In this document: positions 3,656 through 46,817 of the stretch, piece after piece | Numbering within the stretch: the stretch's first letter is position 1 | Layout of the letters: every line of letters starts with the position of its first letter | DNA from: a bacterium | GTDB lineage: Bacteria > Gemmatimonadota > Gemmatimonadetes > Gemmatimonadales > Gemmatimonadaceae | Assembly: GCA_027484025.1 (NCBI GenBank) | Contig: JAIXTI010000121.1 | Coordinates: forward strand, 1 to 64,000 | Direction: 5' to 3' | Length of the DNA stretch: 64,000 nt | Notes under the pieces: model-generated | What the model was told of the DNA's origin: nothing | Database searches by the model: none | The model's input: only the letters and a program-made list of their open reading frames with translations | Program-made: the position numbers and the translations under genes

Positions 3656-3699
3656 GCCGTGATCTTGCGCCTCCCAGAACCGCGGACGTCAATGCGCCC

Positions 3700-4062
3700 C
3701 TGCCGTCTGAGTAGCTGCCGTCTGAGTGGCTGCCGTCTGAGTGGCTGCCGTCTGCCACACTCGGCGCGATGCCGCGGATTCACGCCGAGACGGCGGACGG
3801 CAGGGACCCAGACCGCAGGCACGGGGGAACGGCGGGGCACCCCTGCGCCCCTGCCGTCTGTGTGGCTGCCGTCTGCAAGACTCGGCGCGATGCGGCGGAT
3901 TCACGCCGAGACGGCGGACGGCAGCAACGACAGACGGCAGGGGCGCAGGAACGGCGGATGCTTCTGCGTTCCTGCCTTCTGTGTTTGCTGCCGTCTGCCA
4001 CACTCGGCGCGATGCCGCGGATTCACGCCGAGACGGCGGACGGCAGGGACCCAGACCGCAGT
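3700..4062. repeat. 122-bp palindromic repeat array 2, between the two parS sites
   Basis: Begins with three 15-bp tandem copies plus a partial fourth (unit CTGCCGTCTGAGTGG, 3700-3755). Units of the array-1 family then start at about 3796, 3917 and 4039 (partial). The inner stem is shorter than in array 1 (CTCGGCG/CGCCGAG, 7 bp), because the flanking bases read GATTCA instead of GGATCG. The stretch 3407-4201 therefore has no gene: terminator, inverted repeat, parS, array, parS, parA leader. Confidence 0.85.
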
Positions 4063-4083
4063 CGCGGGGAAACCGCGGGACCG

Positions 4084-11395: not shown

Positions 11396-11630
11396 GGCGG
11401 TTGAACTACGGGTGACTGGTCCGTCGACTTACTCGCGACGGTACTAGCCCTCAGGGGGAAGAACGCAAGGGGAAAGGACGAAGCGCGGTTGTGTCTACCT
11501 AGACCGAGACTGCGGTTGGTTGCGGACGGCACCGCGCTTTCCCCTGTGCACTTGCGTTCTTCCCCCTGAGGGCTAGTGCCGTCGCCAGTAAATCACCGGA
11601 CCAAACGCCCGTAGTTCAACCCAAACCGCC
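11396..11630. repeat. long palindrome family P, copy A
   Basis: Nearly the whole gap between two convergent genes is one imperfect inverted repeat. Its core arms 11443-11469 and 11551-11577 are a perfect 27-bp match, and the outer arms also pair (a GGTTGAACTACGGG word at 11399-11412 and its complement near 11609-11622). Copies B (44881-45085) and C (46121-46354) share the core; a half copy lies at 12094-12168. It could serve as a bidirectional terminator here. Confidence 0.88.
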
Positions 11631-11987: not shown

Positions 11988-12093
11988 GGCACCTCGTGTG
12001 ACGGGGTCATATGCTGGTGCATAGGCGGTGCCACCGGCGCAAACGAGGCTCGACAACGCCTCGCCTCCACGGCGCGTTTTTCCTTGTAGACCG

Positions 12094-12168
12094 CACCGCG
12101 CTCCACCCTGTGCTCTTGCGATCTGTGCCCCGAGGGCTAGATCCGTGGGCAGTTGACCGCCGGACCCA
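12094..12168. repeat. palindrome family P, half copy D (right arm only)
   Basis: Resembles the right half of copy A from ACCGCGCT through the CGGACC end. The 26-bp core matches at about 21 positions. No matching left arm is seen, so it appears to be a decayed half. It lies between the HPF-like gene and the divergent dipeptidase gene. Confidence 0.6.
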
Positions 12169-12185
12169 CCGTTCTTCCCAAGCCC

Positions 12186-43145: not shown

Positions 43146-44846
43146 ATGGCCGCCCCCGCGTTTTTCTCCTCGCCCACACCACGGTCCGTCCGGCGCCTGC
43201 CCACCCCGGCAGCGCTGCGCGCGCTCCCCGTGTCGGCCGCGACGCTCTTCGAAGAAGAGCGCGCCAAAGACGTCGCGACCTTTCGTGTCGCCGCCCGACG
43301 CCGGCTCTGGAGCACCATCATCATTGCCGCGGTCCTCGTGGCCGCGCTGCAAGCCGGGCTCGCGACGATCTCGCTCTGGACCGTCTTCGCCATGTTCGGC
43401 GCCGCCATCGCTCTCAATGGCGTGCTCGCCGTCCTCGGCAGCCGGCCCGCGCTGTACCGCCGCTGGCTCAAGTACGTGTTCGCTTCCTTCGACGCGCTGC
43501 TCATCAGCAGCGTCGTGTACGTGTTCGGCGCCCCGGTGCTCGTGCTCGCGTACATCCTCGCGATCGTCCCCTACTCCTTCGATCGCGGCCCGGCGCTCGG
43601 CTACGTCACCACCGGCGTCTCGGTCGCTGGCTTTCTCGCGGCGAGCTTCGCGCACAACGCGGTCTCCAGCCAAGACCCCACCCCGGTACCGCAGATTCTG
43701 CTGGCCGCCGGACTGCTCCTGATCGTTGCGCAGCAGGTCATTCAAATGCCCACCCGCCTCATCATGCGCCTTCGCCGCACGCGCGAACGCATGGCCCAGG
43801 TAGAGCGTGGTGATCTGTCGGCACGCGCCGATGCACGCCACAGCGATGAGCTGGGCTTTCTGGAGCGCAGCTTCAACGGCATGCTCGATGAATTGCAGCT
43901 GCTCATCGAAACCGTGCAACGCGAAGCGGATGAACTCGCGGCCGTCGCGACGCAGGTATATGGCGCCGCCAGCACGTTGCAGCGGCGCGCGGTCGAAGTG
44001 GCCGGCGGCGCGCACTCGCTGAGCGACGAACTGCATGTGCAGCAGGAGCGCGCGGCCGAAGGACTCCGTACCGGTCAGGATGCGCGACGCACGGCCGATG
44101 CCGCGCGACGGACTGCGGAAATCACCGCCAACGACGCGCACACACTCGATGATATGGCTGGAGCGAGCCGAGAGGCGATTGAACGCGCCGCCCAGGCGCT
44201 GCTGCGCGTTGGCACCGATGTGAACGCGGCCGCCACGACGGTGCGCGCACTCCAGCCCGCGTCGGAACATGTCGGCCATTTCGTCGACACTGTCTCGCGT
44301 ATTGCGCGGCAGACCAACATGCTGGCGCTCAACGCCGCCATAGAAGCGTCGCGCGCTGGTGAAGACGGTTTGGGCTTTGCCGTCGTCGCCGACGAAATCC
44401 GTGCCTTGTCGGTGGAGAGCGGACTCGCGGCCAAGCGTGTCGCCGCCACCGTGCAGCGTGTGCGCGATGACATCAGCGCCGCCGTGCTGGCCATGGATAC
44501 CACAGCCGACGAAGTGCAGGGCGCCGGGACGATTGCCCGCGATGCCACGCGCGCGCTGTCGGGCATGGTGGAAGGGATCTCGCGCATCACCAAGCAGAGT
44601 GATGAAGTGGCGCTGTTGGCACAGACCCAGGCACAGCTGTCCGCTACCGCGGCGTCCGCCTTCGAAGCACTCGATCTTTCTGCACAACGCGCGTCGTCGG
44701 GCGCACGAACCGCGGCCGAAAGCTCGACGGCGCAGCGGAGCAGCATCGAAGAACTCTCACGCAGCGCACAGCAGCTGTCGCAAGCGGCCGCGCGCATGCG
44801 GACGGTGGCACTGCGGCATACGACGGAGTTTCCGGTGGGGGGCTGA
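43146..44846 (+). CDS. methyl-accepting chemotaxis-type protein with N-terminal membrane domain
   Basis: 566 residues. About six hydrophobic segments between 50 and 200, a HAMP-like linker about 205-255 ([20 protein letters not shown]), then a cytoplasmic coiled-coil signalling domain. The hairpin tip reads [20 protein letters not shown] and [13 protein letters not shown], matching the receptor consensus. No periplasmic ligand-binding domain is present, so the signal may come from the membrane or the cell interior. Short gap (26 bp) after pyrE. No che genes are in the window. Confidence 0.88.
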
Positions 44847-44880
44847 GAGGGCTGAGGGGAACTGCAGTCGGGGGTTGGTT

Positions 44881-45085
44881 GGGCTCGGTTAACGGGCTAC
44901 GGATCTAGCCCTCAGGGGGAAGAACGCAAGGGCACAGGGGAAAGCGCGGTTGCGTCCACCGAGAACTGCAGTTGTGGTTCAAGTGGACTGAACCGCGCTT
45001 CTTCCTTTCTCCTTGCGTTCTTCCCCCTGAGGGCTAGTGCGGCGGCAGGTGGACGGCCGGACCAGACAACCGTTGTTCACCCGAA
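44881..45085. repeat. long palindrome family P, copy B
   Basis: Core arms 44905-44930 and 45012-45037 are a perfect 26-bp match to each other and to copy A. Outer arms pair weakly (left short, right up to about 45085). It lies between convergent genes and contains the last 16 or so codons and the stop of the AraC-type gene. Confidence 0.85.
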
Positions 45086-45960
45086 CCGCTTCTGCTGTTC
45101 CGCGCCACCAGCCACTGCGGCGGCGATGCAAACGGATCGAAGTTCTGCAACTGTGTGCGATACGGTGCAACGAGTCTGTCGCGTAACTCATTGAGCATCG
45201 CCTCGCCGGTAAATCGACGTCGGAATTCTGCGGCCCCGATGTTCAGCAGTCCGCTCACATGGCGCGAGAAGCTCTGCGGCGATGAGTACTCCAGCAGAAA
45301 CGACACCTGCGTCAGTGAGCACCCCGGGTTCTCGAGCAGATGGGCAGCGCGTACCAAGCGTGCCATAGCGAGATACTTCTTGGGCGCGGGGATGCCTTGT
45401 CGCGAGAAGCGGCTCATGAGTGTGGTGGGCATCACCCCGACGTAGCGTGAGAGCTGCTGCACCGTCGTCATCGATGGCGGGATGGTGAACAGCGTGTCGA
45501 AGAAACGCACACACGCGTCGCTCGCGCCCGTGAGGTCGGTGCGCAATGTCTGTATGGCCAGGTTGTCGATACTCACCTGGGCATTGGCGCTCACCAGCGT
45601 ACGCAGTTCACGCCACCCTCCGGGATCGCGCGCATCGACGAGTGTGCGCACGCCATGCTCTCCCAACGACAGCAAGGCCGACGACGATCGCGTTTCGTAG
45701 GCCGTGAGTAGCGCGACGGCCGGCACTCTCGGAAACTCGCGCACCATGCGCGCCACCGACGGGGCGAACTGCTGCTGATATCGGGAGACGCTGACGATGA
45801 CCGCCGAGACGGATTGCGAGCGCAGATCGGCCATGACCTGGTCGAGAGACTCGCGATGGACCGTGACGCACGCGGCGTTGGTCACGGCATCCACCCGTTG
45901 CCGCTCCGCCGGTGTGAGAAACGTGACGACCGCCCGGGTTGAACGACTGCTGGTAGCCAT
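45034..45960 (-). CDS. AraC-family regulator with receiver-like N-terminal domain
   Basis: 308 residues. The N-terminal half (about 1-125) has a CheY-like pattern (AVIVSVSRY, PAVALLTAYE, HGVRTLVDARD), but Ser replaces the phosphorylatable Asp and the acidic cluster is missing. The C-terminal half contains an AraC DNA-binding region (ARLVRAAHLLENPGCSLTQV, LEYSSPQSFSRHVSGLLNIG). ATG 45960 has GGAG seven bases upstream. The last residues up to the stop at 45034 come from palindrome copy B. Flanked upstream by palindrome copy C. Targets unknown. Confidence 0.8.
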   Translation of the reverse strand: MATSSRSTRAVVTFLTPAERQRVDAVTNAACVTVHRESLDQVMADLRSQSVSAVIVSVSRYQQQFAPSVARMVREFPRVPAVALLTAYETRSSSALLSLGEHGVRTLVDARDPGGWRELRTLVSANAQVSIDNLAIQTLRTDLTGASDACVRFFDTLFTIPPSMTTVQQLSRYVGVMPTTLMSRFSRQGIPAPKKYLAMARLVRAAHLLENPGCSLTQVSFLLEYSSPQSFSRHVSGLLNIGAAEFRRRFTGEAMLNELRDRLVAPYRTQLQNFDPFASPPQWLVARNSRSGSGEQRLSGPAVHLPPH

Positions 45961-46120
45961 GCACATGCTCCAATCGTGTGTTGCCTCTGGTGCGGCAAGT
46001 GGGGAGGCATGCCGCGTGAGTTTGCAACAGCGACGATAGGACCGGCCGTCAGTAGGACGTCAGCTTTGTGATGCTGCTTGATTGGGGGGGCGTGGAATTG
46101 ATTCGGCTGGGCGTCATCTG

Positions 46121-46354
46121 GGGGTGAACGGCGGTCGGGGTCTTGTCCCGGCGACCAACTCACTGACGGCTCTAGCCCTCAGGGGAAAGAACGCAAGGCA
46201 AAAGGAGAAAGCACGGTTCGCTTGGCACGGAACAACGGGTCGGCATTTCGAGTGGATGGCACCGCGCTTTTTCCTTATTTCTTGCGTTCTTTCCCCTGAG
46301 GGCTAGAGCCGTCAGTCAGTAAGTCGCCGGGACAGACCCCAACCGCTGTTCCCC
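46121..46354. repeat. long palindrome family P, copy C
   Basis: Core arms 46172-46197 and 46281-46306 are a perfect 26-bp inverted match. Outer arms (GGGGTGAACGGCGG from 46121 and its complement ending 46354) also pair. Compared with A and B, the core has one G-to-A change mirrored by C-to-T in the other arm. It fills most of the 417 bp between the AraC-type start and rnpB, where no gene is seen. Confidence 0.88.
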
Positions 46355-46365
46355 TGAAGCCGGGC

Positions 46366-46371
46366 TATATT
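46366..46371 (+). promoter_or_regulatory. rnpB -10 element
   Basis: TATATT ends seven bases before the predicted 5' end of RNase P RNA. The corresponding -35 region would fall inside the right arm of palindrome copy C. Confidence 0.55.
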
Positions 46372-46377
46372 CCGGGA

Positions 46378-46817
46378 CACGGATGTCGCCGGCCGGACGG
46401 TCGCGAAGTTGGGGGACGGACCCTTGTGGTCACGCCCTGGCTCCGAGGAAAGTCCGGGCTCCACAGGGCAGGTTGCCAGGTAACGCCTGGGTGCGTGCGG
46501 CGCGAGCTTCACGCAACGGACAGTGCAACAGAAAGCAAACCGCCGTCTTCGCAAGAAGGCGGTAAGGGTGAAAGGGTGGGGTAAGAGCCCACCGCGCGGC
46601 CGGTAACGGACGTGGCTCGGTAAACCCCGGCCGGAGCAAGGCCAAATAGGCGGTGAGAGACGGCCCGTCTCGAAAGGGCTGCCAGGCCTTCGGGCTGACG
46701 CAGTGAACCGCGGGTAGGCTGCTGGAGCGTGTCGGTGACGGCACGCCGAGAGGAATGACCGTCCGGTGCACCTCGGTGTACCGACAGAACCCGGCTTATA
46801 GGCCGGCGATATCCGTG
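46378..46817 (+). ncRNA. rnpB: RNase P RNA (class A)
   Basis: Catalytic RNA that matures tRNA 5' ends. Conserved parts: GAGGAAAGTCCGGGCTCC near 46451, ACAGAAA and AAGGGTGAAA in the middle, AGAGGAATGACCGTCC near 46750, and ACAGAACCCGGCTTATAGG at the 3' end. Helix P1 pairs 46378-46394 with 46801-46817, 16 Watson-Crick pairs plus one G-U, which sets both ends. The protein subunit gene rnpA lies at 51167. Confidence 0.95.

Follow-up and report, generated by a model that had tools for sequence, protein, structure and literature searches.

The closest described counterparts of the repeat considered here come from Yersinia and Neisseria. YPAL, or RU-2, is a dispersed palindromic intergenic repeat of Yersinia, ∼170 nt long, not A+T-rich and without TA ends; its targets lie at or near sequences of dyad symmetry, its target-site duplications measure 3–26 bp, and it may influence the stability of upstream transcripts (PMC2229807). 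In the minimal mobile elements of Neisseria the whole-gene content varies among strains between the same conserved genes, which has been attributed to homologous recombination (PMC3898611). REPs measure 20–40 bp and are tagged by GTAG or CGTC (PMC3733652).

The 64 000-nt window analyzed here is part of contig C45 of an incomplete Gemmatimonas genome (G000; 4.74 Mb in 291 contigs). Two copies, B and C, of a palindromic repeat that we call P flank an AraC-type regulator gene in this window, one on each side. In the literature searched we found no report of Gemmatimonas palindromes of this type. The reading that we favor, and consider on the whole rather probable, is that P is a gene-end repeat, that B and C are independent insertions, and that neighboring copies recombine with each other.

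The P repeat family

The consensus of P, derived from a profile of 48 copies, is 234 nt long; individual copies have ∼225 nt and are only ∼77–80% alike. Outer arms of ∼45 nt, beginning TGAACTACGG, accompany a core of the form CTAGCCCTCAGGG..AAGAACGCAAG..CTAG. Genome-wide counts were taken from pattern searches, with the reversed pattern as a control. The arm pattern was found 48 times on the forward and 48 times on the reverse strand of G000, 46 and 46 times in the sister species G006, and 46 and 43 times in the sister species G009, against 0 or 1 match per strand for the control; it was absent from the 27 other genomes among the 30 of the genus. Full copies number ∼49 in this genome and ∼46 in each of the two sister species. 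The exact arm also occurs in records of the isolates UKL202c and RE-15aug16-119, which match G006 and G009. Because the genes that flank most P sites of G006 also flank a site in G000, P spread mainly before the three species parted. We picture P as a lineage-specific non-coding palindromic repeat that would have multiplied in an ancestor shared by the three Gemmatimonas species, its first insertions arising with a transposase acting in trans or by another route.

Searches for a phage or plasmid origin of P gave no match; two viral contigs that matched the pattern gave no hit with the P profile. We also rejected a nested origin, in which the core would have entered an outer hairpin at CTAG: among the 27 other genomes the outer arm does not exceed background, and in the P contexts that were fetched we saw no hairpin made of outer arms devoid of the core.

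Position at gene ends

With gene ends and orthologs defined by a home-made gene finder applied to draft assemblies, 66 of the 96 copies in G000 and G006 overlap a stop codon or lie within 15 nt of one, compared with 5.5–8.4% of intergenic points drawn at random. There is also an excess of convergent gaps, which make up 32 of 95 gaps with P and 77 of 511 gaps free of it. At orthologous P-free sites of the closed genome G042 convergent stops are 3 and 8 nt apart, and at locus L208, where G006 carries P, both G000 and G009 have a stop–start gap of 3 nt. Comparison with these sites indicates that the intergenic DNA beside P was replaced rather than simply split, and for this reason no target-site duplication can be read. 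P would thus have settled at the 3′-ends of genes, on or next to stop codons.

A hairpin directly after a stop codon is what one expects of an intrinsic terminator, and P has it; the U-run of the classic terminator is lacking. Given the abutment to stop codons and the huge hairpins, P probably works as a bidirectional terminator-like gene end. One could go further and suppose that P copies are native bidirectional terminators, evolved in place and homogenized by gene conversion. The strict stop-codon position and the enrichment in convergent gaps would suit such an origin, as would the fact that G000, G006 and G042 also have long gene-end palindromes unlike P in sequence. We nevertheless regard it as improbable, since the same junctions in closed G042 have gaps of 3–8 nt with no palindrome, and P is missing from 27 genomes of the genus.

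The alternative that P is a non-autonomous MITE-like element, as YPAL is, moved by a transposase in trans and targeted to gene ends, is compatible with our favored reading, and we give it a chance slightly short of even. Terminal inverted repeats, short length, lack of coding capacity and multiple copies are all features of P; the family is dispersed, orthologous sites free of P exist, one P is present in G006 only, and the insertions are found at stop codons in tight gaps. On the other side, no target-site duplication was read, nearly all sites are common to the three species, leaving little sign of recent mobility, and the single Y1 transposase gene of each P-bearing genome has no P on its flanks and is present in five P-free genomes too. 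No autonomous partner or transposase with P ends was found among the full and half copies or the fetched flanks of this incomplete genome. A link to RAYT was rejected on the same distribution of the Y1 gene and on the absence of P beside it. The single Y1 (IS200-like) transposase gene lies at L196:1225-1953; a frame near it translates into repeats of the motif TLTPFG, which makes the adjoining DNA a short tandem repeat.

Other palindromes were seen in the course of this work. Positions 1–285 and 3693–4079 of the window hold another palindromic repeat family, GCTGCCGTCTGC..GCGGACGGCAGC, with direct copies 122 nt apart, and similar palindromes occur in other contigs of the genome. Further long palindrome families sit at convergent or tandem gene ends (gaps L155, L161, L165, L208, L226, L240 and L242); in G042 gene-end palindromes occupy loci L189, L258 and L266, and the families differ between lineages. 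With other such palindromes both in G042 and in the P-bearing genomes, P is one of several families of this kind in the genus. At L239:5506-5729 a P copy lies at a synteny breakpoint; at this place G000 and G009 show a hairpin resembling a terminator, and their sequence downstream is different.

Copies B and C at the AraC-type gene

The features of the locus are the following (window coordinates):
43146..44846, + strand: methyl-accepting chemotaxis protein (MCP) gene, convergent with the AraC-type gene
44866..45082 (profile bounds), no strand: P copy B, a palindrome lying where the MCP and AraC-type genes converge
45034..45966, − strand: AraC-type regulator gene, 310 aa, Pfam HTH_18; ancestral neighbor of rnpB in the genus
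46124..46354 (full stem; profile bounds 46136-46346), no strand: P copy C, a palindrome lying where the AraC-type gene and rnpB diverge
46366..46371, + strand: TATATT box, conserved in the genus, that precedes rnpB and lies immediately beyond copy C
46385..46814, + strand: rnpB, RNase P RNA class A, Rfam RF00010

A sequence-only reading had described two full copies bracketing one gene, and both are indeed there as copies of one near-complete palindrome of ∼225 nt. It rightly placed C upstream of both the regulator and rnpB: C is one of the few P copies located in a divergent gap, and its right edge precedes the −10-like TATATT box of rnpB by ∼12 nt. The arms of C pair over 74 nt at 89% and the core arms of B over 55 nt at 85%; the predicted RNA folding energies are −171.8 kcal/mol for C (z −17.8 against shuffles) and −135.5 kcal/mol for B (z −9.2). 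An Rfam search of the window matched rnpB alone. The right arm of B encodes the end of the regulator: the G042 protein aligns only to residues 1–293 of the 310, so the final ∼17 codons, TAG stop included, derive from B.

The same reading proposed that the two copies are the borders of a one-gene module. In that case B and C would delimit a mobile cassette that brought the AraC-type gene to its place, an idea to which the over-representation of neighboring P copies (8 gaps below 3.2 kb versus 1.6 expected, P-value 0.00025) and the swapped segments between P copies elsewhere lend some appeal. The relatives speak against it. When the synteny of the gene and rnpB was compared, as had been suggested, 27 of 29 relatives had the two side by side on a single contig, and 25 of these 27 lack P; thus the regulator occupies the same locus in the absence of palindromes, the very observation that had been named in advance as counting against a module. 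Closed, P-free G042 has the same order, MCP–AraC–rnpB, with the convergent MCP and AraC stops 3 nt apart at the position of B and a gap of 185 nt between rnpB and the AraC-type gene, compared with 418 nt in this genome. Orientation and content of the locus are identical in all three P-bearing species, and different cassettes between the same conserved genes, the mark of a minimal mobile element, were not found there. The two copies, moreover, match each other poorly: their identity of 0.741 (74%) is under the mean of all pairs, 0.771 (77%), which is unlike a duplicated pair of borders. We consider a mobile AraC cassette very unlikely. Judged by synteny and sequence identity, B and C are insertions independent of each other that flank an ancestral gene, and they do not delimit a mobile module; bracketing by two repeats need not mean that the gene between them is mobile.

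Gene change between neighboring copies elsewhere

The idea of P-bordered modules, which did not survive at the AraC-type gene, held at other places, where OmpA, IVS, toxin–antitoxin and ars or restriction–modification genes differ. One of these places is in the window itself:
11398..11622, no strand: P copy A, chimeric in the sister-species alignment; the OmpA gene has been lost here
12075..12173, no strand: half P copy separating the S30AE gene from the M19 peptidase gene; a half copy in G006 too

What had been read as a pair of palindromes at 11–12 kb is in fact one full copy (A) and one half copy, around a ribosome-hibernation-type S30AE gene. A changing gene does exist at this locus as the module idea had it; it is the adjoining OmpA gene, however, and not S30AE. 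The order in G042 is S30AE–OmpA–permease without P, while G006 and G009 have P–OmpA–P and this genome has a single P with the OmpA gene gone. In the alignment the left edge of copy A corresponds to the permease-side P of the sister species and nearly all the rest to the S30AE-side P. Such a chimera fits what would be expected if two P copies had recombined with loss of the OmpA gene.

An IVS-type gene (Pfam 23S_rRNA_IVP) between two P copies is inverted in G000 relative to G006 and absent from G042. The interval between lpd and lipB holds a DUF2283–HTH gene in G000, DUF2442 and MazEF-type genes in G009, several toxin–antitoxin-type remnants upstream of lipB in G006, and a short gap in G042. 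On the G006 side, toxin–antitoxin-type remnants and IS21-like genes were seen piled up beside a P copy (L232:1-8817). Between the MFS and histidine kinase genes, G000 has the order MFS–P–ars–P with genes whose translations read as ArsR-, methyltransferase- and ArsC-like, and the translations in the same interval of G006 resemble type I restriction–modification. Relative to G042, gene content has changed at 8 of 19 P boundaries and 5 of 85 P-free ones, most of these differences being unpolarised; between G000 and G006 there is no excess at P (2 of 34 P boundaries, 8 of 180 P-free boundaries).

Toxin–antitoxin cargo, palindromes just after stop codons and an integron integrase in the genome could suggest that P is the attC site of an integron-like cassette system. 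We find this the least credible of the possibilities considered, and we rejected the identity because distribution and sequence disagree with P: the integrase is found in 18 of the 30 genus genomes and P in 3, no P lies near the integrase, and the repeats beside the integrase start with the attC-like TAACGC and are not P. The integrase gene, above the cut-off in those 18 genomes, lies beside a DEAD-box helicase gene (L245:9617-10558 in G000, contig C101; L247 in G042), with the attC-like repeats on its other side.

Proposed recombination between copies

Since every copy is palindromic, any two neighboring P are homologous to each other whichever way they are read. If such neighbors recombine, this could delete the gene between them, with copy A as the best case, or invert it, as for the IVS gene; recombination at P could also exchange segments at the same place. 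The content differences there are seen directly, and from sequence comparison we infer recombination between copies as the cause of the exchange. The ∼77–80% identity among copies, low for RecA-type recombination, argues against this part of our reading. Neighboring copies resemble each other more than random pairs do (0.820 versus 0.771; 0/20000), and of the 37 orthologous pairs in which the center of P could be scored, 15 have it inverted. Among G000–G006 orthologs we counted 216 changes affecting both arms, 81 being expected under independence; 79 of them preserve the pair. These joint changes fit either arm-to-arm conversion or selection on the hairpin.

One could speculate, as a tentative idea that we hold to be rather unlikely, that palindromic gene ends are a general kind of cassette border, at which genes or operons would undergo loss, inversion and exchange with no dedicated recombinase needed and which would also end transcription from both sides. 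It could work in this way because each P can pair with any other in both orientations. The cargo would comprise single genes and whole operons (toxin–antitoxin, ars, restriction–modification). If P is both gene end and recombination border, integrase-free gene turnover at fixed chromosomal places would be explained, and P copies, chimeras and center flips would form a record of past recombination and a testable case.

Comparison with known systems

P resembles integron attC sites in being palindromic and directly following stop codons and in its association with toxin–antitoxin cargo, but its sequence is different, it is dispersed over the genome and its distribution is independent of the integron integrase. 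With the REP/BIME–RAYT systems it has in common palindromic extragenic repeats near gene ends and one Y1-type gene per P genome; however, no P flanks that gene, and instead of a 20–40-nt unit tagged with GTAG or CGTC we see ∼225 nt (consensus 234 nt) with an outer arm that starts as given above.

Among described repeats YPAL of Yersinia comes nearest to P in kind, and the Neisseria minimal mobile elements come nearest in behavior. Like P, YPAL is a dispersed palindromic intergenic repeat; the sequence and the organism are others, and P is palindromic nearly from end to end and abuts stop codons, with no duplication read. The Neisseria elements, which have NIME/dRS3 repeats nearby, share with P the variation of gene content between the same conserved genes, seen here at the lpd–lipB and MFS–kinase loci. 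The P segments differ in being bordered by one palindrome family and in undergoing inversion and deletion too, and our comparison is between species rather than strains. The apparent deletion at copy A, with its chimeric P, fits incorporation through homologous recombination alone.
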